This document shows, piece after piece, positions 5,726 to 23,889 of a DNA stretch of 64,000 nt. The translations under genes were made by a program, and so were the position numbers. Under the pieces are notes generated by a model. It was not told the DNA's origin and ran no database searches. It was given only the letters and a program-made list of their open reading frames with translations. Location: the NCBI GenBank assembly GCA_003135135.1, contig PLDK01000024.1, forward strand, positions 54,536 to 118,535. The letters are read 5' to 3'. Every line of letters begins with the position of its first letter. Position 1 is the first letter of the stretch. Source of the DNA: Deltaproteobacteria bacterium (GTDB taxonomy: Bacteria > Desulfobacterota > Binatia > Binatales > Binataceae).

Positions 5726-6043
5726 TTGGTTACGGTGCCGCGCGACGGTCCATCGACGAAAACGCTGCTCTTGGATCGCAGAGAATTTTTGTCATCTGCC
5801 ATGTCGTGTTACATCCCGCGATCGGATCCCGCGGCCGATGGCGATTAATGATTTGTATAACAGCGCGCGCCCCCGCGAAATCCCAGGTCAGGGTGGCGCG
5901 GCCCGCGCGTGCGTGCAGCATGGCGGGCGAGGCATTCGACGCGGCAGCGCAGCAGGAGTACTAGGCGGCCGGCTGCCGTCAAAGCTGCGTATTTGACTTT
6001 GGACTCCGCCTTATACGATGAACACTGTGAGGGCACTATTTTC
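5726..6043. other. Divergent intergenic region
   Basis: This 318-base gap separates the leftward peptidase-ATPase pair from the rightward Ldi-like pair and should hold promoters for both. I see no clear operator or RNA structure. The reading frames that cross it have unconvincing composition. Confidence 0.4.
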
Positions 6044-6370
6044 ATGCCGTGTTGCGCATTCGCAGCGTTCATCGTCAGCCAGGTCGTGCTGGGCTTCGGC
6101 GTCATCAGGCGATTCGTGCTGAGATCGGGCGATACGCTCGACGACGCGCCGGGTAATCTCGCGACCGAGTGGCGATTGATCGGCGCCCCGCCCGCGACCG
6201 CGGCGCCGCAGTCGAGTCGCGGCCTGGGGCTGCGCACACTGGCGATTGCCGCATCGATAGAGATTCTGCTGGCGAGCGGCGCCGCATACGGCTACCACCT
6301 GCACACGCATCATAATCACCACGACCTCGCCCGCGTCGCGAGCGTGCCGGTTCCCGTTTGCATGAGATAA
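6044..6370 (+). CDS. Small membrane protein with histidine-rich tail
   Basis: The start chosen is the ATG at 6044, preceded by GAGGG about 11 bases upstream. The 108-residue product has an N-terminal hydrophobic stretch (CAFAAFIVSQVVLGFGVI), a Pro/Ala-rich linker, a second hydrophobic segment (LAIAASIEILLASGAAY) and then YHLHTHHNHHD, a cluster of histidines that could bind metal. It lies 19 bases before the Ldi-like gene and is probably co-transcribed with it. No family is recognised. Confidence 0.55.
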   Translation: MPCCAFAAFIVSQVVLGFGVIRRFVLRSGDTLDDAPGNLATEWRLIGAPPATAAPQSSRGLGLRTLAIAASIEILLASGAAYGYHLHTHHNHHDLARVASVPVPVCMR

Positions 6371-6389
6371 GGAATCGAGGAGAACAGCC

Positions 6390-8309
6390 GTGGCCGTTAT
6401 ACCAGGCGATATCGCTCAGGCATTCATTCGAAGAGAAACGGCCGTCGGGCCGGTGACCTCCGCGCGTCATCGCCGGATTGCGATGATCTACGGCGCGATG
6501 TGCATCTTCGGCATGCTGCCGACGATTCTCAGCATGTCGCCGTCGCTGCAGGCTGCGGGGCTGGGCCTGTGGATTCCCGGCGGCGGATTCCTCGCGGTTG
6601 GCGGATGGGCGATCCTGTTGTTTATGCTGACGCTGGCGCTGTTCGCGCTTGCCGTGTTCGCATGGTTCGGCGCCGGGATGGTGGTTGCGCCCATCATCGT
6701 ATGGCTCGGCTCGGCGCTGCTGGCCGGTAAGATGGTGGGCGAGCAGAGCTGGTTTCTCGCGCCATATTTCGTCGCCGCGATAGTCGCGGGAATCGGCATC
6801 TATGCATATCAGCGGCAGCAGGCGCGCAAGACTGCCGAGCTTGCGAAGCTCGAGGCGCGCAAGCGCAGCATCGGGACGGCGATCGCCGAAGCAATCGCCG
6901 TTGCGGCGCCAGTGCCGTCGATGGCCGAGCGCGAACTCACGCCCGACGAGCTCGCAGCGTCGCGCTATGCGCTCGATCGCGCGCTCCAGCCGATCGGTCA
7001 GATGAATGGCTACGACAAGGTCGATCAGTTCCAGACTTCGGCGCTGCGCTATCAGATCAATCACCTGGGTTACGGCTTGGGCATGCTGCAGTGCATGTAC
7101 ACGCCGAGCTTTCATGGATATCTCTCGCAGGCGCAGCGCAACCTGATCGAGCTGTATCTCGATCGCCGAATCTGGGGCTACTGGCTATGGGAGTCGGCGT
7201 GGGGACATTTGAATCTGACCGATCCGGATCCCGCGGCCAAGGACAACATCATGCTCACCGGATGGTTCGGCATCCAGCTCTGCATGTACATGTCAACCAC
7301 CGGAGACCGCCGCTACGCCGCGCCCGGAAGCCTGCCGTTTCGGCGCAACATGCATCGCGTGTTCCATCACGACGCGCACAGCATCGCGCAATCGGTGGCC
7401 AAGAATTTCCTCGATTCGGAATTCTGCCTCTATCCGTGCGAGCCGAACTGGATCTATCCGATTTGCAATCACTACGGGATGACGTCGCTCAAGATTTACG
7501 ATCGCGTGTTCGGCACAAAATACGTTCCGAGCGTGCTCGATCGATGGCTCAAGAATCTCGATACCGAATTCACCGACTACAGCGGCAGCATCATCGGACT
7601 GCGCTCCTCGCTGACGGGAATCAGTTTTCCATTTCCGGCGGCAGATGCGCTCTTCGCGGGATTCGAGAATTGCTTCGCGCCCGATCGCGCGCAGCGGATG
7701 TGGGCCACGGCGCGACAGGATTTGAAATACATCATCAAGTCCGATGAGACTGGCGCGAAGCGGCTTTCGATGCCGGGAAAGGGATTCGACTTTGGCAATT
7801 ACAAATCGGGCTATACCGGCGTGTATGCGATGCTGATGGATACCGCGCGCGAGTTCGGTGATTACGAAATTGCCGACGCAGCCCTGCGCGCGCTCGATGA
7901 GGATTGTGGCCGCGCCGATGACGGCGGCGTACTGCGATATTCGAAGGGCTCGAATCTTTCGAACGCGATGGCGATGCGTGCGCGCATCCATCGCCGCGAT
8001 GACTTTCGCAGGACTATCGCGGAGGGCCCGCCGGAGGCGTCATTGCGCGGACCGATTCTCACCGATGCGAAGTATCCCGAGGTACTGGTGGCGCGCGCAT
8101 TCAGCAACAGCGACGACCTCGAGCTTGTGCTCTATCCGGGCGCGAAGCCTGGTCCGCATGAGATTCGTATCGAGCGGCTGCGGCCGGGCGCCAAATACGC
8201 GATGCGCAACGGCTCGGAGCACGCTTTTACGGCTGACAACAACGGCACGGCATCGCTATCCGTCGAGCTTCACGGCCGCACGCCGATCCATATCGTTCCG
8301 GCCGGCTGA
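6390..8309 (+). CDS. Linalool dehydratase/isomerase-like protein with N-terminal membrane domain
   Basis: Of 639 residues, about the first 150 hold four hydrophobic segments, and the rest is a soluble alpha-barrel-type domain. The core contains LRYQINHLGYGLG, HDAHS, and C(350)EPNWIYPIC(359). Two cysteines nine residues apart after a YPCEP word recall the catalytic cysteine pair of Castellaniella linalool dehydratase/isomerase, which interconverts myrcene, linalool and geraniol. The known enzyme is a soluble periplasmic protein with a cleaved signal, so a multi-span membrane anchor is unusual. This suggests a hydrophobic alkenol or other lipid substrate. It is preceded by a small membrane protein gene and a GAGGAG ribosome site. 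Family assignment is from memory of motifs. Confidence 0.7.
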   Translation: MAVIPGDIAQAFIRRETAVGPVTSARHRRIAMIYGAMCIFGMLPTILSMSPSLQAAGLGLWIPGGGFLAVGGWAILLFMLTLALFALAVFAWFGAGMVVAPIIVWLGSALLAGKMVGEQSWFLAPYFVAAIVAGIGIYAYQRQQARKTAELAKLEARKRSIGTAIAEAIAVAAPVPSMAERELTPDELAASRYALDRALQPIGQMNGYDKVDQFQTSALRYQINHLGYGLGMLQCMYTPSFHGYLSQAQRNLIELYLDRRIWGYWLWESAWGHLNLTDPDPAAKDNIMLTGWFGIQLCMYMSTTGDRRYAAPGSLPFRRNMHRVFHHDAHSIAQSVAKNFLDSEFCLYPCEPNWIYPICNHYGMTSLKIYDRVFGTKYVPSVLDRWLKNLDTEFTDYSGSIIGLRSSLTGISFPFPAADALFAGFENCFAPDRAQRMWATARQDLKYIIKSDETGAKRLSMPGKGFDFGNYKSGYTGVYAMLMDTAREFGDYEIADAALRALDEDCGRADDGGVLRYSKGSNLSNAMAMRARIHRRDDFRRTIAEGPPEASLRGPILTDAKYPEVLVARAFSNSDDLELVLYPGAKPGPHEIRIERLRPGAKYAMRNGSEHAFTADNNGTASLSVELHGRTPIHIVPAG

Positions 8310-8494: not shown

Positions 8495-9586
8495 TCATTT
8501 GGCTTTTCGAGGCGTGTAAGCCGAGACGTGCAGACCCGGACCGTCCGGAAGAAGCTGCGCGGCCGAGGGGAACTCAACTCCGCAAAACGATCCAGCCGGG
8601 AAAAATCGCGCGCCGCCCGCACCGACCGCGGTTCCACGACGCGAGAGCGCCGATGCGAGATGCACCGCGGTGCTCATGCCAACCGCACTCTCGATAGAAT
8701 CGGTGACCACGACTTTGATTCCGGCGGTCCCCGCCAGTCGCGCAATTTCGACGCATCGAGTCGGGCCTCCGAGCCGCGCTGCTTTCAAGACGAGGTAGTG
8801 GGCGGCATCATGCTCGATAAACGCGCTGAGCGCCGCGGCGCCGCTGAGTGATTCATCGAGGGCGAGCGCAACCCCGGTGGCATCGCTGAGCCGGCGCATG
8901 TCGCCCGGTTGCGGCGAGCGCAAAGGCTCTTCGAGGAACTCTATGCCGTATGGATGGAACGCATGCAGCGCAGCCTCAGCCTGCTTCAGCGTCCATGCGC
9001 GGTTCGCATCGAGACGGATTGAAAGATCGTTTCCGATCGCCATTCTTAACGATGCAACTTTCATGGCGTCCGCCGCGATCGCGCGCGCACCAACCTTGAG
9101 CTTGAAGGACGTGTGCCCATTGCCGACAGCAATGCGTGCTTCCTGGGTCAACTCCCTGGGCGTCCGGCCTGCCAGTAGCGCGCAAACCGGCACAGGTCCG
9201 ATCGATTCGCCGCCCAGCACGGATGCCATCGGAACTCCGCGGATACGCGCGCTGAGATCGATCAGCGCGGTGTCGAGCGCGCATGTTGCGGCGGGCGTAA
9301 ACGGAGAGCCGCCGGAACTATTCTCATCGATCAGGCTGCGCAGTTCGCCGGGATCGCGATGGCGATCGACACTTTGAACGATCGATTCGAGCGCGCGGCG
9401 CGTTTGCGCTATTCGCTCACCGCCGAGCCAATACGCGGGGCTGGCCTCACCCATTCCCCGTTCTCCCGAGTCGGATTCTACCGTCAACACGAATCCTTCG
9501 CGCGATCCGATTCGTCCCCGCGCAGTCGAGAGCGGCCGCACGAAGGGCGCGCAAAATGGAGTGATCGATGCGGCCGTGATCTTCAA
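8495..9586 (-). CDS. menC: o-Succinylbenzoate synthase
   Basis: This is an enolase-superfamily enzyme that dehydrates SHCHC to o-succinylbenzoate in menaquinone synthesis. The barrel shows the KLKVG lysine motif, metal ligands in IRLDANRAW, EFLEEPL and LALDESL, and the second lysine in VLKAARLGG. An N-terminal capping domain begins ITAASITPFCAPF. The start is taken as TTG at 9586, whose TTGA overlaps the menA stop, giving 363 residues. The frame remains open further upstream, but that part overlaps menA and does not look coding. It is the last gene of the operon. Confidence 0.88.
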   Translation of the reverse strand: MKITAASITPFCAPFVRPLSTARGRIGSREGFVLTVESDSGERGMGEASPAYWLGGERIAQTRRALESIVQSVDRHRDPGELRSLIDENSSGGSPFTPAATCALDTALIDLSARIRGVPMASVLGGESIGPVPVCALLAGRTPRELTQEARIAVGNGHTSFKLKVGARAIAADAMKVASLRMAIGNDLSIRLDANRAWTLKQAEAALHAFHPYGIEFLEEPLRSPQPGDMRRLSDATGVALALDESLSGAAALSAFIEHDAAHYLVLKAARLGGPTRCVEIARLAGTAGIKVVVTDSIESAVGMSTAVHLASALSRRGTAVGAGGARFFPAGSFCGVEFPSAAQLLPDGPGLHVSAYTPRKAK

Positions 9587-10482
9587 AGGATGAGCGCCAG
9601 GGTCAGAAGCAGACCGTAGGTGAGATGAAGCGCGGCGGTTCGCGCGAGGCTCTGATTCAAGTCCGCTCCGGTACGCCGGCAAATCGCGCGTATTTCCTCA
9701 AACGCGAGCGGCGTGGCTGCGATCGGCAACAACAACATCGCGCCCCCGAGCCAGGCGAGCACCGGCGTCATCAGGAACGCGATCGCAACCAGGGCGCCGT
9801 ACTCGGCGCGCGCGAAGCCTGGTCCGAACTGCACCGCAAGCGTGCGCTTCCCGGCGCGGCCGTCGGTATCGACGTCGCGCAAATTGTTCACGACCAGAAT
9901 TGCGGTGACAAGGCACGCAATCGGAATCGAGGCTGCGATGGAAAGCGAGGTCGCAGTGCCGGTCTGAAGAAACACCGTCCCGTTCACCGCCACGAGGCCA
10001 AAAAATACAAACACGAACGCGTCGCCCAATCCATTGTACGCGAGCGGCCAGGGTCCGGCGGTGTATGCGATTGCCGCCACCAACGACACGATCCCGATGC
10101 TCAGAATCGGCCATCCACCGACCGAGACGAGGTAGCATCCGATCAGCGCCGCGAGACCGAGCACGCCAAGCGCCGCGTTCCTGACCGTCGACGGCTCGAC
10201 CAGGCCTGCCTGTGTGACGCGAAGCGGTCCGAGCCGCGCCGCTGTGTCGGCACCCGCGACGAAATCGAAATAATCATTGGCGAGGTTGGTGCCGATCTGA
10301 ATCAGCAATGCCGCGAGCAGGGTCATTAACCCGAGCATCACTCTCACGTGGCCGCTGCGATGCGCCAAAGCCAAACCCACAATCACGGGCGCCGCGGCAG
10401 CGGTCAAGGTCCGCGGTCGAACAGCGGCAAGCCAAACCGAAAAGCCCGGCGGATCCAAATTTTCGATCGCTTGAGCGCTCAC
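9583..10482 (-). CDS. menA: 1,4-Dihydroxy-2-naphthoate polyprenyltransferase
   Basis: The 299-residue integral membrane protein belongs to the UbiA superfamily and joins DHNA to a polyprenyl diphosphate. The first Asp-rich motif is [14 protein letters not shown] and the second is [18 protein letters not shown], a MenA-type sequence. About eight hydrophobic helices are visible. The GTG start at 10482 overlaps the menB stop (GTGA), so the upstream extension of the frame is rejected. Its 3' end overlaps menC. A second, divergent UbiA-family gene lies at 41393-42415. Confidence 0.9.
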
Positions 10483-11297
10483 GGCACGCGCTTGAATCTC
10501 GAGAAGTCGGGCTTGCGCTTCTGGTTGTAGGCGTTGCGGCCTTCCTGCGCCTCTTCCGTCATGTAGTAGAGCAAGGTGGTATTTCCAGCCAGTTCCTGGA
10601 TTCCCGCCATCCCGTCCATCTCGGCATTGAATGCCGACTTGAGGCATCGCAGCGCCATCGGGCTTTGAGCGAGAATCTCGCGGCACCACTGGACGGTCGT
10701 CTCTTCTAATTGCGCCAGTGGCACAACCACGTTGACCAATCCCATATCGAGCGCTTCGGCCGCACTATAGCGCCGGCACAGGTACCAAATCTCGCGCGCC
10801 TTTTTCTGACCGACGAGCCGCGCGAGTTGCGATGCGCCGAGACCGCCGTCGAAACTTCCGACCCTGGGCCCGGTCTGGCCGAAGACCGCGTTGTCGGCGG
10901 CAATAGTCAGATCGCATACTACGTGCAGCACATGGCCGCCGCCGATCGCGAAACCGGCCACCATCGCGATAACCGGTTTCGGGATGCTGCGAATCAGCTT
11001 TTGCAGGTCGAGCACGTTGAGGCGCGGAACGCCGTCGGCGCCGACGTAACCCTGCTCGCCGCGGATGCGTTGATCGCCGCCGCTGCAAAAGGCCTCAGTG
11101 CCCTCACCGGTCAGGATGATCACGCCAATCTCGCCGTCTTCCCGCGCGCGCGCGAAGGCGTCGAGCAACTCCGTCACCGTGAGTGGACGAAATGCGTTGC
11201 GGACCTCGGGGCGGTTGATCGAAATCCGCGCGATTCCTTCGGCCTTCTGAAATCTGATGTCCTTATATTCGTGCGCGTCATGCCATTCGATTTGCAC
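10479..11297 (-). CDS. menB: 1,4-Dihydroxy-2-naphthoyl-CoA synthase
   Basis: This crotonase-family enzyme closes the naphthoquinone ring from o-succinylbenzoyl-CoA. Its 272 residues match the usual MenB length. Diagnostic segments are [20 protein letters not shown], the oxyanion stretch [34 protein letters not shown], and the C-terminal [18 protein letters not shown], which reaches into the neighbouring subunit. It starts at GTG with AAGGAG eight bases upstream. No menE ligase, which should supply its substrate, is in this operon. Confidence 0.93.
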
Positions 11298-11336
11298 TGC
11301 GGTTCTCCTTAAAGTGTTGGATTAAGTTTTTACTTT

Positions 11337-12185
11337 TTACGGTTCGCGGTTAAGAAAATCGGCGACGAGGCGGTTGAACTCGCGGGGACGTTCGAGATGC
11401 GGTGCGTGACCCGCGCCGCCGATCGCTTCAAAGCGCGCATCACCGGCCAGAGCAGCCATTTGCTCGCCGATGGCGGTGAACTTCAAGTCCAGCGCGCCGG
11501 CGATCGCGAGGGTCGGCATGCGCAGCGCCGGTAGTTCGTCGCCGAGCCATGGCTGCACGCCGGTTCCCACCCCGCGGAGACTTCGCGCAAGTTCTTCGAC
11601 GCAGCAGCCGAACCGCTCGCGCCGCAAACGATCGATCTTTTCGGCCGGCATCCGCGCCATCGACTCAAACAGCGGGATCGACTCCCATCGTTTGACGAAT
11701 GCTTCGATTCCCGCGCTCTCGGCGAACGCCGCCAGCTCAGCGTCGGCTTGTATCCGAGCTGCCCGATTGGCGGAATCCGCGATACCCGGGGAAGCGCTCT
11801 CCAGCACCAGCCGGTTGATATGAGCGCCGTAATTGAGCGCGATAAACAGCGCGAGCCTGCCGCCCATCGAGTAACCGAGGAGCGAGAAGCGCGGGACTGC
11901 GAGAACCTCCGTGAGCAAGCGAATCACCATCGCCGCCGCGCGCTCGATCGAATAATTTTCAACGTCGATTCCGACTCGGGTGCCTCCGTGTCCCGGCAAA
12001 TCGATGCTGACGACGCGCCGATCCGTCCGGAGTTGCTCGCGCAGATCGCGCCAACTGTCCTTGCTGCCGGTGAAACCGTGCAGCAGGACGACAGGATCGC
12101 GCGCCGGGGTCTGCGGCGAAAGCGCGGATGGACCTTCGTCGCTGAATTCGACGGTCGCAGTGCCGATCTCAACTCGACGATTCAT
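11337..12185 (-). CDS. menH: Alpha/beta hydrolase, SHCHC synthase
   Basis: The 282-residue hydrolase has the nucleophile elbow GYSMGGR (Ser106), an Asp in GALDLKF and a His in GGAGHAPHLERP, the expected Ser-Asp-His order. HGFTGSKDSW supplies the oxyanion hole. Position between menD and menB supports MenH, which eliminates pyruvate from SEPHCHC, over a generic hydrolase. The gene starts 12 bases after menD, in an A-rich gap that contains GTGAAAAGTGAAAA. Confidence 0.85.
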   Translation of the reverse strand: MNRRVEIGTATVEFSDEGPSALSPQTPARDPVVLLHGFTGSKDSWRDLREQLRTDRRVVSIDLPGHGGTRVGIDVENYSIERAAAMVIRLLTEVLAVPRFSLLGYSMGGRLALFIALNYGAHINRLVLESASPGIADSANRAARIQADAELAAFAESAGIEAFVKRWESIPLFESMARMPAEKIDRLRRERFGCCVEELARSLRGVGTGVQPWLGDELPALRMPTLAIAGALDLKFTAIGEQMAALAGDARFEAIGGAGHAPHLERPREFNRLVADFLNREP

Positions 12186-12197
12186 CGGATAATTTTT

Positions 12198-14000
12198 TCA
12201 CTTTTCACGGGCTGCGGCGTGGAGCCGGGTAAGCGTCGTCTCGATCAGCCGGCGATGCATCGCGAGGTTGCGGGCTCGATCGCCTCGAATCTCGAGCAAG
12301 TGCAAGCCGGGATGATCGAGAGCGTATCCGACTGCGGCGTTAAATTCGCTCCACGAGCCAGCGCGCGCGTATCGTGCCCGGCCCAGTGCGGAAGCCCGCT
12401 CGAAATCGAGTCCGTGCGGCGTCGCGAAGAAGGTTTCGAAGCTGTCGCCGAGCGCGGCCTGGGGCAGAAATGAGAAAATTCCGCCGCCGTCATTGTTAAT
12501 CACGGTCACGAGCAGATGGACGGGGTAACGCGCCGCGATTTGCAGGGCGCCGATATCGTGGAGAAGGCTCAAGTCGCCGAGGACGAGAATGGTCGGCGCT
12601 TTTCGCGCGGCGGCCGCACCCAGGGCAGTTGCGAGCACTCCGTCGATGCCATTGGCGCCGCGATTGCAAAATAGCGCAGTGTCGCGGTCCGACTGTCCGA
12701 CGAAAGTATCGAAGTCGCGCACCGGCATGCTGTTGCCGGTATGCACGGCGCAACCGCCCGGCGCCAGCCGCATCAGCTCGGCAACGACCTTGCCCTCGAA
12801 CATCGTAGTTTCATCGGCGAGCATCGCATCGAGCGCCGCGCGCGATCGCGCCGATGCCGCAAGCCACGAATCGAGCCACGGCGACATCTTCGGCGAGTCA
12901 TCAAGCGACTCGAACAGCGCGTCGCACAATTCAACTGTCCCGACCTGCGCTACGTCGGAGGCGATTTGAAGCGGATCGGGCCAGGTTCCCGGCTCCGCGA
13001 CCATCAGGTGGGATCGGCGCGGTCGCGAGGCGAGAAATTGCCCGAGGCTCTTCGAGACGGGAGGATCGCCAAACTGGATCACGGCGTCGGGCTGATTAGC
13101 CTCGCAAAACGCCGGGTCGCGAAGCAGGACGTCGTAGGCATCGACGATCCTCGAGCGGTCGTGATGGCCGGCACGAAGACCCGACAATGGATCGGCGAGG
13201 ACCGGCCAGTTGAGCCGCCCGGCGAGCCGCGCAATCGAGCGGGCCGCATCCGGCGACGGCGCGGCGGGACCGGATACTATCAGGCCTCGATCGCAGCCGC
13301 GCAGCTTGTGGGCGAGCGCGCCAATCGAATCGGGCGGTAGGGCGGGGCGCGCGGGATAAACCCGCGTGTACGGTGCGCGCGATTCATCCGCCGCGAATTC
13401 GCTTTCACCGATGCGTGCAAGCGCCTCGCGTTCCTCGCTCACGTCGATAAGCGGTTCGCGCATCGGCAGGTTCAGATGCACCGGTCCGGCCGGCATTTGC
13501 GCCGCGGTGGCGAACGCGCGGCAAGCGATCGTGCGGTAATAGCTGTCGAGGTCGAGGCCCGCGACGGGAGTGGCGAGATCGACGCTCCATCGCGCGTGAC
13601 TCCCGAACATCCTGACCTGGTCGATGGTCTGCGGGGAGCGGCAATCGCGCGCCTCGGGCGGACGGTCGGTGGTGATGACGATCAGCGGAATCCTGGACAG
13701 GGAAGCCTCGACGACGGCGGGCATGTAGTTGGCCGCGGCGGTGCCCGAAGTGCATACGAGGATGACGGGGCAGCGGGTCTCACGCGCCATCCCGAGCGCA
13801 AAGAATCCGGCGCTGCGTTCGTCGAGGATCACCCATGGCCGCACTGCGGGCGCCCGCAGCAGGCCGGTGACGATCGCGGTGGAGCGGGAGCCGGGCGAGA
13901 TGCAGGCGTTGGCGACGCCGCAACGCGCGAACTCATCCATCATGACGGCGGCCGCGCGGCTATTGGGATTACGCGATGGTTCCAAGGGGGGTGCTCCCAA
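12198..14000 (-). CDS. menD: SEPHCHC synthase
   Basis: This thiamine-diphosphate enzyme couples 2-oxoglutarate to isochorismate. The N-terminal domain has [12 protein letters not shown] and the catalytic-type glutamate in [15 protein letters not shown]. The C-terminal TPP-binding domain has [13 protein letters not shown] and [13 protein letters not shown]. At about 600 residues it is slightly longer than many MenD proteins. The start is uncertain: the TTG at 14000 lies inside menF and has no good ribosome site, and downstream alternatives exist, but conserved homology begins by about [13 protein letters not shown]. Confidence 0.9.
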
Positions 14001-15306
14001 TCAGGGCGGTCAGCTTATTTTCAGTCTCGGCAAATTCCGCTTCGGAGTCGGAACCCGCGACGATCCCGGCGCCCCCGAAGAGGTACATCCTGCTGCCGTC
14101 GATAACGCCTGCGCGCAGCGCGACCGCGAACTCGCCCTGGCCCTTGGCGTCAATCCAACCGACGGCGCCGGTGTACCAGCCGCGCTCCGGTTCTTCGCGC
14201 TCGATGATTGCGCGGGCCGCTTCGCGCGGCACACCGCATACGGCGGGCGTAGGGTGAAGAAGTCCGGCGAGTTCGATGACGCTGCGAGGTTCACGCAAGC
14301 GGCCCTCGATCCGGGTGAACAGATGCTGCGCCTCGGGCAACAGCATCAGGCGCGGCTGCGCGGCAACGTTCAACGGTGAAGCCACGGGCTCGAGCGCCGA
14401 GGCGAGCGCATTGACGACATATTGGTGCTCTTCGAGGTTTTTCGCCGAACTGAGCAGCGAATCGCCCAGCGCGCGATCTTCTTCAGGGTTGTCGCCGCGC
14501 GGCACGGAACCGGCCAGCGCACTTGACGTGACAGTTTCTCCGTCGAGCTCGACCAGACGTTCAGGCGTGGAACCGACGAACGAGGTAATCCGGGGGCTGA
14601 CGAAGAAGTTGACGCATGAGGGGCGCGCGGCGCGCGCTGAATCGATGAAACGCGCAGGATCGATCGGCGAATCGGTTTCGATCGTCAGGCTCCGGGACAG
14701 CACTACCTTTTTGAGCGCGCCGCCAAGGATTTGTGAGCGGACGCGTTCGACGCGCTCGCGCCAATCAATCCGCTCCAGCGATGTCGTTGCCGATGGCCGG
14801 AGTTCCAAAAGTGGCGATGGATCTGCAGACCGATGGCAAGAGCGTGGGGGCTGGAGCGCTCGCGCGAGGAGACGATCGACTGAGTCCCGGTCGTCCTTTG
14901 CCCAGGTCATAGTCAGGGTGCATCGCGCGCCACGGCGAACCCACAAAAGCCTGGGCAGGAAGATCCACGCGGGTGGAAACTCGCGCCATTCGCGCGCCTG
15001 GCACGCGCGATCGGAAAAGCCAAAGCCTCCGACCATCAACGGACCGCCGCCCGGATTACCGCTACGACCTGGATTTAACGAGCGGAGAAGCTCGCGGGAG
15101 CGCTCCGAGACATCCCGGAATCGGCCGGCACCCGATGCTCGAAACTCCGCAACCGCGCCGGCCGCGGCGATAGTCAGTCCGTGGTCGGGCCGTTCCCAAT
15201 AGAAGAGCGGGGTCGCGCCGCAGCCGCGGATCGCGCGGAGCAAATCGACAGGTTCATCGACTGGAACTGTCTCGGAAAAAATCGAGTCCGGATAATTCAT
15301 CGCCAC
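13969..15306 (-). CDS. menF: Menaquinone-specific isochorismate synthase
   Basis: The 445-residue protein is a chorismate-utilising enzyme that converts chorismate to isochorismate, the entry step of the pathway. The C-terminal catalytic domain shows [50 protein letters not shown] and [11 protein letters not shown], with Mg-binding glutamates. It starts 16 bases after ubiE and its 3' end overlaps the likely menD start. Isochorismate could also feed siderophore synthesis, but the operon context points to menaquinone. Confidence 0.9.
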
Positions 15307-15321
15307 ACAATTCCCTAACGG

Positions 15322-16011
15322 CTATCGGTGTCCGGTGATGAGCTGCACGGCGCCACCGAGAAAGCGGCGCTTGTTGAGATCGCGAAAGCCCGCATCGGTG
15401 AGCATCGCCATCATGCGCGCCTCGTCGGGAAGGTAAGTCACGGAGGACGGCAGCCATGCGTATGCGTCGCGATCGACGAGCCGGCCCACGAGCGGCACGA
15501 GCTTGTGAAAGTAGATGCGATGCCCGGCGCGGAGCAGGGGCGAGGCGGGAGTATCCACTTCGAGCAGCGCGATTTTTCCGCCGGTCTTCAGGACGCGGAA
15601 ACATTCGCGAAACGGGTCTTCCAAATTCGCGAAGTTACGGAGCGAAAAGCCCGACACGACCGCGTCGAAGGAGCCAGCGCGCAGGGGCAAGCGGAGTGCG
15701 TCGGCGCGGATCAAGCTGGAACACGCGGAGCGGCGTTTCACTTGCGCCATGCGCAGCATCTCGTGCGAGAAATCCAGCCCCACGACGCGGACGCCAATCC
15801 TTGCGAGGTCGGCACAGAAGTCACCGCTGCCACAGGCCAAATCGAGCGCGCGAGAATCCCGCGGCAGCGCCAGCGCCTCGACCGCGTCCCTTCGCCAGCG
15901 CCGGTCCATGCCGAACGTCATGAGGCGATTCATCAGGTCGTAGCGCGGGGCGATCCGATCGAACATCGCCTTGACCACAGCCGCCTTGGCGTTCGCTTCG
16001 GGCATATTCAT
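15322..16011 (-). CDS. ubiE: Demethylmenaquinone methyltransferase
   Basis: The 229-residue SAM-dependent methyltransferase performs the last step of menaquinone synthesis. Visible motifs are FDRIAPRYDLMNRLMTFGMD near the N-terminus, SAM motif I LDLACGSGDF, the post-I aspartate in VGLDFSHEML, and FSLRNF, all typical of UbiE/MenG. The ATG overlaps the stop of the preceding MerR-type regulator gene (ATGA), which makes its translation depend on the regulator's translation. Confidence 0.9.
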   Translation of the reverse strand: MNMPEANAKAAVVKAMFDRIAPRYDLMNRLMTFGMDRRWRRDAVEALALPRDSRALDLACGSGDFCADLARIGVRVVGLDFSHEMLRMAQVKRRSACSSLIRADALRLPLRAGSFDAVVSGFSLRNFANLEDPFRECFRVLKTGGKIALLEVDTPASPLLRAGHRIYFHKLVPLVGRLVDRDAYAWLPSSVTYLPDEARMMAMLTDAGFRDLNKRRFLGGAVQLITGHR

Positions 16012-20834: not shown

Positions 20835-21674
20835 CTAGGGCGCGGCGAAGCTGTACTTGCCGTCCTTGAACTCGATCCATCGCCCGCGGTCCGTGACCTG
20901 GCCTGCCACGTCGATTTGCGTGCGCAAAATCATGAGTTCCTCTTCGGTCGGCACTTCGAGAATCTCGAGCTTGGGCGCGATCGCCGGCTTGAAACTCATT
21001 TCCTCGAGCACCTGTTCCAGCGTGACGAAGGGCGCGATTGCCTGGATCATGAGCTGGCAATCGGCGCCGTACCCGAACATCGCCCACGGGGTGTAAACCC
21101 GCCATGGGCCGGTCCCGGGCGGAAGGCCGTGGCGCTCGCGGGCGCCCGGACCGTCGAGAAAACCCGGCGACGAAATGAAATCGACGCGATCGACGAACTT
21201 GCGCTTTTGCTGATCGGTGACCAGGATTGTGCGCCATGCGAGCGCTGCGATGCTGTCGGCGCCGCCGGGGCCCCCGAAGCGCCGTCCCTCGCCACCTTCA
21301 TATTTGCCGACCACGGTGGAATTGACGTTTCCGTAGCGATCGACCTGAAGCGTCGCGAGGATGCCGTAATCGACGTAGCCGAGTTGCGCGAGGTCGGCGG
21401 CGTAATTCATCGTGCCCCATTGAAGTGCGCGATAATTAGCGGGCGAGCTGATCATCGTCATCAGCGGATCGAACGGCACCCGAGCCTCGGGCCCGACGCA
21501 CCCATCCTCAGTCAGGTATTGGAGGTTGGGCGCGCTCATGCGCTTGGCGAGCAGGACAGAGTTCATCGGCTCGCCGCCGCCGCCAACCCAGTAGATGTAC
21601 TTGTCGTCGACCAGGCGCGAGATCTGACAGATGACAAATTCGCGCTCATTGAAGTCGGTAGCTGGAGTGCTCAC
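20835..21674 (-). CDS. CoA-transferase, beta subunit (family I, glutaconate CoA-transferase B-like)
   Basis: The 279-residue protein resembles the B subunit of glutaconate and IpdAB-type CoA-transferases or hydrolases: WVGGGGEPMNSVLLAKR at the start, TEDGCVGPEARVPFD, and GGPGGADSIAALAWRTILVT. The glutamate in TEDG is at the place of the family's active-site acid, but I cannot confirm it. The ATG overlaps the alpha-subunit stop (ATGA), showing coupled synthesis of the heteromer. Related pairs act in ring-opening steps of steroid and aromatic degradation. Confidence 0.82.
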   Translation of the reverse strand: MSTPATDFNEREFVICQISRLVDDKYIYWVGGGGEPMNSVLLAKRMSAPNLQYLTEDGCVGPEARVPFDPLMTMISSPANYRALQWGTMNYAADLAQLGYVDYGILATLQVDRYGNVNSTVVGKYEGGEGRRFGGPGGADSIAALAWRTILVTDQQKRKFVDRVDFISSPGFLDGPGARERHGLPPGTGPWRVYTPWAMFGYGADCQLMIQAIAPFVTLEQVLEEMSFKPAIAPKLEILEVPTEEELMILRTQIDVAGQVTDRGRWIEFKDGKYSFAAP

Positions 21675-22642
21675 GAGGCATAGCCCTCCCGGATAGTTTC
21701 GCGCCGGCGGATCTCGGCGAGTTTTTCGGTTCCCACCACTTTCTGCAGATACTCATCGTGCGATTGCACCGAGTACACGTGTTTCTTGAGGTACTCGGTG
21801 AAATCGCCGCGGAACATCGCGCCCATTGCTTCGATGACTCCCATTGGATCCGACGCGTAGTATCCCTGCACCGTTCCCGGGTAGGCGCCGAACGGGGCGT
21901 GCACGACCGCGTCCACGGTGAAGTGCGCGATCGAGGTGCGCGCCGGATCGCGCCGGAATTCATCGGTCGAGACGATCTCCTCGGCGGACACGATCACTCG
22001 CTTCGACGCGAGCGCGCATTCCGCGTGCGCGATGCCGGTGCCGAAGACGCGTGCGTTACCGAACTCGTCGGCCTGATGAACGTGGATGATTGAGACATCG
22101 GGATTGAGCGCCGGGACCAGCAGAACTGGTTTTCCGGTGAAGGGGTCTTCGACGATTTTGCAGCCCGAATGCTGAAATCCGTCGGTCCCGCCGAAGCTGC
22201 GCGCCGGCATGAAAGGTATCCCCATCGCACCAGCCTTGAGGCGCAGCGTTATCACCGCATTGGAGTACTCGTAGATGGTGCACTTCTTTTCGCGCACCGC
22301 GCGCGAGATCCACGGGCCGAAGCCGATGAATCCGATGTCGATCCGATCGGCGCATCCTGCTTCAACCAGGATCGCGCATGCGACATAGGTGAACTTGCCG
22401 CACAGCCATAGATTTTTTTTGCGCTGGCGGACGATCTCGCGAATCAGCGACGACGGTCCTCGCTGAAAGTAGTTGCAGTCGTATGCGAGGTAGTCGCCGT
22501 CGCGTACGAAGCGCTCGACCGCCTCTTTGTGAGTCATCAACTTCGAGACCATCTGATGCGGTTTATTGTCCCGCACGCTCGCCCGATAACCGTCGGGATC
22601 GACTTTCAGATAGTCGGCTTTGCCTTCTTCCAGAATTCGCAT
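21671..22642 (-). CDS. CoA-transferase, alpha subunit (family I, glutaconate CoA-transferase A-like)
   Basis: This 323-residue subunit contains GFIGFGPWISRAV, ARSFGGTDGF, and VSIIHVHQADEFGNARVFG, which match the alpha chain of glutaconate-type CoA-transferases. It pairs with the beta gene, with which it overlaps by 4 bases. Upstream on the same strand are a small recombinase-like protein gene (46 bases away) and a nitroreductase gene, forming a likely four-gene catabolic operon. The acyl-CoA substrate is unknown. Confidence 0.82.
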   Translation of the reverse strand: MRILEEGKADYLKVDPDGYRASVRDNKPHQMVSKLMTHKEAVERFVRDGDYLAYDCNYFQRGPSSLIREIVRQRKKNLWLCGKFTYVACAILVEAGCADRIDIGFIGFGPWISRAVREKKCTIYEYSNAVITLRLKAGAMGIPFMPARSFGGTDGFQHSGCKIVEDPFTGKPVLLVPALNPDVSIIHVHQADEFGNARVFGTGIAHAECALASKRVIVSAEEIVSTDEFRRDPARTSIAHFTVDAVVHAPFGAYPGTVQGYYASDPMGVIEAMGAMFRGDFTEYLKKHVYSVQSHDEYLQKVVGTEKLAEIRRRETIREGYAS

Positions 22643-22688
22643 TTGCTGAATTCTCCCGAACCTCTCGAGTTGCCGGCATCGCTGCGGT

Positions 22689-23045
22689 TCAGATTTGGAT
22701 CCCGGACTGCAGCTGGATGCCGTTGTGAATCAGGAAACTTCGGACGGCGTTCCCACGCTTGGCCCGCTCACGACCTTCGGCGCCGCCCTTCGCCTGAAAA
22801 TCGGTTATACGTTCCGCCATCGAGCGTCTGCCCTTGATGCTGATCTTGGTTTCCTTGCCTTCTTTGCGCAAAAGGCAGGCGGCGACGATCTCGTCGGGGT
22901 CGAGTTCGAGCGTGGCGCAAAACTCCGCAAGCAGTTCGAGCCTCGATTTATCCTCGTTGGGCTCGACGCCCGATTGCTCGCGCAGTCCCTGGTACCAGGT
23001 CTTGACTGAGGCGTACTCTTCGAGCGGTTTATTTATTGACGCCAT
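22689..23045 (-). CDS. Small protein resembling the core-binding (SAM-like) domain of tyrosine recombinases
   Basis: The 118-residue protein reads like the N-terminal arm of a phage integrase: LLAEFCATLELDPDEIVAAC, then a basic middle, MAERITDFQAKGG, and NAVRSFLIHNGIQL. In integrases this pattern clamps the att DNA. The catalytic domain with Arg, His and Tyr is absent here and nothing downstream supplies it. It stands inside a catabolic operon between the nitroreductase and CoA-transferase genes. It may be a DNA-binding regulator derived from an integrase, or an unrelated protein that resembles one. Confidence 0.5.
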   Translation of the reverse strand: MASINKPLEEYASVKTWYQGLREQSGVEPNEDKSRLELLAEFCATLELDPDEIVAACLLRKEGKETKISIKGRRSMAERITDFQAKGGAEGRERAKRGNAVRSFLIHNGIQLQSGIQI

Positions 23046-23100
23046 CGTTATTTTCGAGCGGTGCGTAGTTCTATCGGTCGATTGCGCGGTTCGATGCAGC

Positions 23101-23889
23101 TTACTCGGGAAGACCGAACATCCTCGCGAGCGCTTTGATTTCCTCTTTTCGCCACGGCAGCGGCGCCTGCGCCTGGATCATCTTCGCCGCCTTCATCTGC
23201 TCGGTCACCTTGGGATCGCCCTTGAATGGCTTTCCGTATTCGCCCTCGAAGAAGATCTCCTCCAGCGGCGGACGCGGACGCTGTCCACCTGCTTCCCACG
23301 ACTCGGCCGGATAGCCCACCAGCAGCACCCATAGCGGAATCCAATCCTTGGGGGCCTTGACCAGCTTGTTGATCGCGTCGTGCTGAAAGGCGGTCAGGCA
23401 GACGCCAAGTCCCTCGTCAACCCCAGCGAGCATCGCCTGGCAAATCGCGATGCCCGCGTCCGACGCGGCCGATGCAGCCACCGATGCCAGGTTCGGGTTT
23501 TCAGCCAGCGGTTTCAGAATGTTCGGCCAAACGAATTCATCGACGAACTTATGGCTCCATCCGTGGCTGATGTTCAACGCGCCGACATCGACCAGCTTCT
23601 TCAGCCGCGCCTGAGCGCCCTTGTACGCGCCCATATCGACGTAAGTGTAGATGTGCACCGGGGCGAGCTCGATGGTGAGTCCGGAGACCGGAGTCTTGAG
23701 CGCGTCGAGTGTTTCACGCGGGATATTGTCCCGGATCATGACGATCGCTTTGAGAAAGGTCGCGTTGACCGCGCATGACGCGAGCCGCGCCGCCTCCAAC
23801 ATGATCTGGATCTTCTCGCGTTCGACGCTGCGCCACGATTGGAAGTAACGGATCGATCGGCGCCGTCCTACTACTTCTTTGAATTCCAT
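23101..23889 (-). CDS. Nitroreductase-family flavoprotein
   Basis: The 262-residue product has the FMN-binding RRRSIRYFQ near the N-terminus, SDAGIAICQAMLAGVDEGLGVC in the middle and a GYPAESWEAGGQRPR loop near residue 200. A C-terminal extension ending QAPLPWRKEEIKALARMFGLP is shared with the second nitroreductase at 33629-34471, so the two belong to one subfamily. Members reduce nitro groups, quinones or enones, or act as dehalogenases. It is the first gene of the likely operon with the CoA-transferase. Confidence 0.8.
   Translation of the reverse strand: MEFKEVVGRRRSIRYFQSWRSVEREKIQIMLEAARLASCAVNATFLKAIVMIRDNIPRETLDALKTPVSGLTIELAPVHIYTYVDMGAYKGAQARLKKLVDVGALNISHGWSHKFVDEFVWPNILKPLAENPNLASVAASAASDAGIAICQAMLAGVDEGLGVCLTAFQHDAINKLVKAPKDWIPLWVLLVGYPAESWEAGGQRPRPPLEEIFFEGEYGKPFKGDPKVTEQMKAAKMIQAQAPLPWRKEEIKALARMFGLPE

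Follow-up and report, generated by a model that had tools for sequence, protein, structure and literature searches.

We identified a membrane-anchored protein of the linalool dehydratase/isomerase (Ldi) family, of the linalool isomerase (Lis) type, in a Deltaproteobacteria bacterium of the family Binataceae, together with a neighbouring gene for a short membrane protein that begins with a Cys-Cys pair. This microprotein is conserved together with the membrane-anchored branch of the family, and its genomic link to the enzyme was found in several phyla. On the strength of the sequence comparisons, we consider that the Lis-type enzyme and its dedicated microprotein partner probably form a two-part allylic terpenol isomerase, a reading to which we give a probability of about 0.62. 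The features concerned are given below by their positions in the window, which is the whole stretch of 64,000 nucleotides that was analysed (contig PLDK01000024.1).

6044 to 6370, plus strand: gene of the Cys-Cys microprotein, 108 aa (M-P-C-C-A-F...), recognised by its conservation beside Lis
6377 to 6382, plus strand: GAGGAG, likely ribosome-binding site of the Lis gene, from reading of the sequence
6390 to 8309, plus strand: membrane-anchored Ldi-family protein of the Lis type, 639 aa (open reading frame, Pfam, identity to Lis, tree, model and structure match)
6450 to 6902, plus strand: predicted N-terminal membrane anchor, residues 21-171 (AlphaFold2 model and hydropathy)
7047 to 7955, plus strand: Ldi domain, Pfam PF18566, residues 220-522 (profile match, and structure match over residues 175-553)
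7263 to 7265, plus strand: Trp292, at the position of Ldi His128 (residue alignment)
7437 to 7439, plus strand: Cys350, counterpart of Ldi Cys170 in the numbering of 5hlr (PDB sequence match and alignments)
7464 to 7466, plus strand: Cys359, counterpart of Ldi Cys179 (PDB sequence match and alignments)
8055 to 8300, plus strand: predicted C-terminal beta domain, residues 556-637 (secondary structure of the model; past the part alignable with Ldi, which ends at about residue 553)

Genomic association of the microprotein with Lis

The conserved start of the microprotein is the ATG at 6044, which gives 108 aa, and not the GTG at 5909 that opens a 153-aa reading frame. Its gene is separated from that of the enzyme by 19 nt. 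Helices are predicted at residues 2-29 and 59-95, and the predicted fold is weak (AlphaFold2 pTM 0.33). The trait kept in all the microproteins is Met-x-Cys-Cys, with the Cys-Cys at residues 3-4, running into a membrane helix; beyond this first helix they are poorly conserved (29% mean column identity). The original prediction had placed a small His-rich membrane partner upstream of the enzyme. The membrane ORF is real, but the His-rich tail is confined to the nearest relatives. No Pfam or NCBIfam family scored over its cut-off for the window microprotein or for the family members tested, and we found no published account of the microprotein in the open PMC literature. It is apparently an undescribed and widely conserved family.

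Public genomes were scanned with a query alignment made from the window protein plus five relatives, which yielded 143 confirmed relatives, 80 of them kept as loci. Microproteins were called by a rule that asked for Cys-Cys within six codons of the start, then a hydrophobic stretch, and 30-140 codons to the stop; adjacency meant the same strand and a distance of at most 400 nt from Lis. By this final rule a microprotein ORF lies near Lis in 60 of the 80 loci, spread over several phyla, preceding Lis at 42 loci and following it at 18. Successive versions of the rule had given 40/80, 52/80 and then 60/80 loci. The same rules, applied to both strands of the 1,168,340 locus bases, produced 8, 8 and 20 matches elsewhere, respectively; three of the last 20 are true members (L075, L104 and L108) and one place in L062 was counted three times. 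By our own arithmetic, about 0.5 adjacent matches would be expected by chance against the 60 observed. Cys-Cys begins at residue 3 in 56 of these 60 microproteins, the rule permitting positions 2 to 7, and a Trp follows the first helix in 55. The 60 adjacent microproteins range from 39 to 140 aa, and gaps to Lis of 25 nt or less occur at 46 loci. The microprotein was conserved beside Lis in all seven related genomes that were read (L020-L026), and at two further loci (L037 and L105) it is cut by a contig end.

The two genes are not always close neighbours. The microprotein stands farther from Lis at L075, L104, L108 and the Thauera-type loci; distances of 7.7-9.3 kb are found in the Thauera group, and in Thauera linaloolentis it precedes the atu genes at a distance of 7.7 kb from lis, on the upstream side and on the same strand and contig. 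For loci that lack an adjacent copy, genome-wide searching located the microprotein elsewhere in Thauera, Steroidobacter, Nevskia and several proteobacterial genomes. No microprotein was found in the flanks of eight of the 80 loci (L058, L060, L068, L087, L088, L095, L098 and L106), two of which have almost no upstream flank. A profile search found none genome-wide for L068, L087, L088, L095 and L098 either; since the profile misses short forms, such absences weigh little.

The co-occurrence extends to presence and absence among genomes. The microprotein profile matches exactly 8 of 58 related genomes, and these are identical to the 8 with full-length Lis. Genome G222 holds a broken Lis relic (L027, G222:C45:58000-70500, at about 5983-6528), and the microprotein is absent from it. 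Three of the 150 Thauera-family genomes searched have Lis, and all three have the microprotein, that of G276 being a short form missed by the profile and recovered by a pattern scan. Each of three full-length Lis genes on plasmids has a microprotein near it, the Rhodococcus opacus copy lying about 1 kb downstream. In a reverse search of 397 sphingomonad genomes, 13 of 15 microprotein matches directly adjoin Lis; the other two are a Cys-Cys ORF with no Lis within 1.5 kb and a poor match that lacks the Cys-Cys. The former of these (L176, G850:C55:7457-7690) is a lone copy or the partner of something other than Lis. Flanks of Ldi-domain genes that lack the four-helix anchor, the Ldi of Castellaniella defragrans included, contained a Cys-Cys ORF in 0 of 10 cases (architecture was read for all but L008). 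Because the genomes have common ancestry and some of them serve in more than one test (G252 and G254, for example, are in both the sphingomonad and the 80-locus sets), these counts are not independent events.

Enzyme architecture and kinship with Thauera Lis

The enzyme gene begins with GTG and encodes 639 aa. An AlphaFold2 model built from 56 aligned sequences is confident nearly everywhere (mean pLDDT 91.7, pTM 0.91) and places a membrane-helix bundle (residues 21-171) before an alpha barrel and a beta domain (556-637). Model helices span residues 21-46, 51-59, 65-70, 72-95, 100-115 and 124-171. The anchor is thus predicted to comprise four membrane helices, with a re-entrant-like pair at 51-70 and a long helix at 124-171 that leads into the barrel. 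Hydropathy agrees, with a GRAVY of 1.1 for the N-terminal 145 or so residues versus -0.36 for the remainder. The Ldi profile PF18566 is covered from position 1 to 317 of 318 with an E-value of 4.8e-85 and 286 bits, against a cut-off of 26.1, and the only significant PDB sequence matches are chains of C. defragrans Ldi. In structure comparison the barrel (residues 175-553) aligns with Ldi at Z 34-35 (best 35.2), with an rmsd of about 2.5 over about 334 residues. Because the next fold, that of GH76/GH105 barrels, reaches a Z of only about 20, the match to Ldi is far above chance. GH76, GH105 and GH88 proteins and cellobiose 2-epimerase share the general (alpha/alpha)6 barrel with the window protein (Z about 18-20), but their identity to it is about 6-14%, their chemistry is that of sugars, and they fall far below the Ldi match. 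Profile, model helices and hydropathy therefore uphold the original prediction of an Ldi-like core fused to a four-helix membrane anchor, and the two cysteines are exactly where it had put them.

The membrane-bound layout, which had been taken for a different architecture, is already known. The Lis of T. linaloolentis, described by Marmulla and others in 2016 (PMC4791888), has exactly that layout, with 644 aa, four predicted helices within the first 139 residues and a cytosolic Ldi-like domain, so that a membrane-anchored form of the Ldi family has been known since then. Its activity was located in the inner membrane, and reductants activate it or are needed (PMC4791888). Lis isomerises geraniol and linalool, geraniol yielding both linalool enantiomers (PMC4791888), and in PMC6013536 it is said not to catalyse hydration or dehydration. 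It is the closest characterised relative of the window protein, with 50% identity over residues 20-637, anchor included (L044). We equate the L044 reading frame with the published lis because it measures 644 aa when counted from its second Met, lies within the atu cluster after the geranyl-CoA carboxylase and hydratase genes, and has a start that agrees with the published lis primer (PMC4791888); the gene order also agrees with the accessions in PMC4847356.

Side by side, Lis (ENO87364, EC 5.4.4.4, T. linaloolentis 47Lol) and the window protein are of similar length (644 versus 639 aa, about 640 aa being expected of the Lis type) and have in common the four N-terminal helices, the Ldi-like C-terminal domain, the Cys pair, a Trp at the position of Ldi His128 and a Cys-Cys microprotein somewhere in the genome. 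They differ in setting. Lis sits in a geranyl-CoA (atu) cluster at a distance from its microprotein, whereas the window gene adjoins its microprotein and has no terpene cluster around it. In a tree of 84 rows, restricted to loci whose proteins exceed 500 aa, the window protein clusters with the uncultured relatives L031 and L032 and then with L034 and L033. Alphaproteobacterial and Thauera-type branches adjoin this group, and L095 and L003 are on very long branches whose placement is unsure. Lis has been called the sole relative of Ldi in PMC6013536 and PMC6600392; this understates a family from which one scan recovered 143 relatives.

Gene surroundings, active site and alternative readings

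The window Lis gene has opposite-strand menaquinone-type genes to one side of it, and its neighbours in the other direction are an ABC transporter and an unassigned ORF; terpene pathway genes were not found in its own neighbourhood. We take the genes at 8495-16011 (minus strand) to be a compact menaquinone-type cluster, with an enolase-family protein, a UbiA prenyltransferase, a MenB-like member of the enoyl-CoA hydratase family, an alpha/beta hydrolase, a MenD-like TPP enzyme, a chorismate-binding enzyme and a methyltransferase-like ORF. This cluster was rejected as functional context, since it stands beside Lis in the window and L020 but not in L022-L026 and looks incidental. The best carboxylase of the window genome matches two Thauera carboxylases, one of the geranyl type and another, about equally (498 and 501 bits), and an Atu pathway is therefore not claimed for this genome. 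Elsewhere in the window, at 20835-23889 (minus strand), a nitroreductase-family gene accompanies a pair of neighbouring CoA-transferase-family genes, and acyl-CoA dehydrogenase-like ORFs lie beyond them; the set presumably resembles those of steroid-ring degradation.

In four of four members of a separate Lis-like clade (L030:8240-11389, L091:1664-4044, L104:7965-10832 and L108:7941-10959), Lis and the microprotein are closely followed downstream by a DgkA-family kinase. These come from a plasmid of Aureimonas sp. AU20, a Rhodospirillales MAG and two alphaproteobacterial MAGs. The family assignment is by PF01219 in the two kinases tested. In the Aureimonas locus (L030), uppS lies upstream and overlaps the start of the Lis gene. 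The arrangement suggests, at the level of gene order, prenol or polyprenol substrates in this kinase-linked branch. The original prediction had raised longer or non-terpene alkenols as candidate substrates of the window protein, an idea with which this kinase link in another branch is compatible.

Could the window enzyme likewise act on a longer isoprenoid alcohol, such as farnesol/nerolidol or polyprenols, with a role in quinone or cell-envelope metabolism and not in the breakdown of monoterpenes? A membrane anchor would suit such a role, as would the absence of terpene breakdown genes beside the enzyme, the men-type cluster next to it, the kinase and uppS genes of the separate clade, and the tolerance of Ldi for substrates up to C13 (PMC12455561). 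However, the men-type cluster is missing beside Lis in the more distant relatives, and the kinase-linked clade is distant from the window clade in the tree. We therefore regard this reading as rather unlikely.

The active site bears on what kind of Ldi-family enzyme this is. Residues named as key to Ldi in PMC12455561 are H128, Y44, D38, C179 and C170. We compared Ldi with 74 Lis-type rows (the window and 73 of the 80 loci, the others being dropped for length or as L091, L095 and L106), in which the counterparts of C170, E171, C179, Y65 and M124 (C350, E351, C359, Y221 and M288) are invariant. The position of Ldi His128 is held by Trp in 47 rows, Phe in 15, Tyr in 12 and His in none, and the Asp38/Tyr44 stretch has no clear counterpart in the sequence alignment. 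A 56-row alignment (the window and 55 of the 80 loci) shows no variation at the Cys-Glu-Pro...Cys site, Tyr221, Tyr264 or Trp265. At the counterparts of Y65, M124, H128 (Trp), C170, E171 and C179 the window protein equals Thauera Lis. A mapping of the Ldi active site thus holds for the Cys pair, Glu171, Tyr65 and Met124 and breaks down at His128, while Asp38/Tyr44 have no clear sequence counterpart; active-site residues are missing when the yardstick is Ldi, and not when it is Lis.

Ldi itself (LinD of C. defragrans 65Phen; PDB 5hlr, 5g1u and 5i3t; EC 4.2.1.127 / 5.4.4.4) is like the window protein in its fold (Z 35) and in Cys170/Cys179, Glu171, Tyr65 and Met124. Unlike it, Ldi is an exported periplasmic protein of 397 aa that lacks the anchor and the C-terminal beta domain, and it has His128 as well as the Asp38...Tyr44 motif, the latter without a clear sequence counterpart in the window protein. 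Its gene (L160), which in genome G757 matches 5i3t across all 397 residues, has no Cys-Cys microprotein nearby, in contrast to the window gene. If the window protein were a Castellaniella-type linalool dehydratase/isomerase bound to the membrane, hydrating myrcene and isomerising linalool, that would explain the common Pfam family, fold, catalytic cysteines and CEP motif. This reading is nevertheless improbable, because His128, a key residue in PMC12455561, is Trp292 here, Asp38/Tyr44 lack a clear counterpart, a multi-helix anchor replaces the cleavable export signal, and Lis, the closest characterised relative, is described as lacking dehydratase activity. To judge from sequence and model, the window protein counts as a Lis and not as a Castellaniella-type Ldi on the features compared (His128 and export). 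Thauera Lis has the same replacements as the window protein, and its published isomerisation without hydration fits. Both kinds of enzyme occur together in a Sterolibacteriaceae genome, G267 (L155 and L157; contig as in L039), which carries an anchored Lis, 70% identical to that of Thauera, along with a microprotein; a separate gene there encodes an Ldi of the Castellaniella type, in which both His128 and the Asp38/Tyr44 motif are present.

The microprotein, for its part, might be a leader peptide or a chance ORF with no role in the work of the enzyme, as its shortness and its poor conservation past the first helix would allow. Its position downstream of Lis in 18 of 60 loci rules out a leader there, the Cys-Cys at position 3 is kept, and genome-wide matches lie almost only beside Lis, which makes this reading very improbable. 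A core that has lost catalysis, or a membrane binding or sensory protein, would account for the replacement of His128 and the apparent lack of an Asp38/Tyr44 motif in comparison with Ldi but is scarcely credible, given that the published active Lis carries identical replacements, that the site residues are invariant in 56/56 rows, and that codon changes in the enzyme gene are concentrated at third positions.

Proposed function of the pair

In the two-part allylic terpenol isomerase that we favour, the Ldi barrel would be held on the inner membrane by the four N-terminal helices, probably with a cytosolic orientation. On an allylic terpenoid alcohol it would shift the hydroxyl group from C3 to C1 or back, a reaction of the linalool to geraniol type. 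This would take place at the membrane surface, where terpene alcohols gather, with the enzyme opening to the membrane via its anchor. The Cys350/Glu351/Cys359 site may aid the allylic hydroxyl in leaving as water, and water would re-enter at the other end of the allyl cation. As a subunit, the microprotein would complete the membrane part by supplying the anchor with one or two further helices, and its Cys-Cys end might hold the enzyme in the thiol state on which the published activity depends.

The microprotein may be the missing half of the enzyme. When lis was expressed alone in E. coli, full-length or truncated, protein was made and was inactive, and the primers described spanned lis only (PMC4791888). 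A missing subunit may be a simple explanation for this inactive recombinant Lis, and if the microprotein is indeed required, the inactivity of Lis expressed alone would be accounted for. More broadly, and with rather less than even confidence, we suggest that the anchored Lis proteins are two-component enzymes, in which the microprotein would be an indispensable membrane subunit, forming or protecting a redox-sensitive active site, and that the family would span several lengths of allylic isoprenoid alcohol, including polyprenols in the kinase-linked branch.

In conclusion, what our analyses add is a companion microprotein of 39-140 aa that accompanies Lis in Pseudomonadota, Actinomycetota and Bacillota. 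Both Lis and Ldi attract interest as means to produce or convert terpenes and dienes, and a missing subunit, if this reading is true, would open up a family of which a single member has so far been partly purified.
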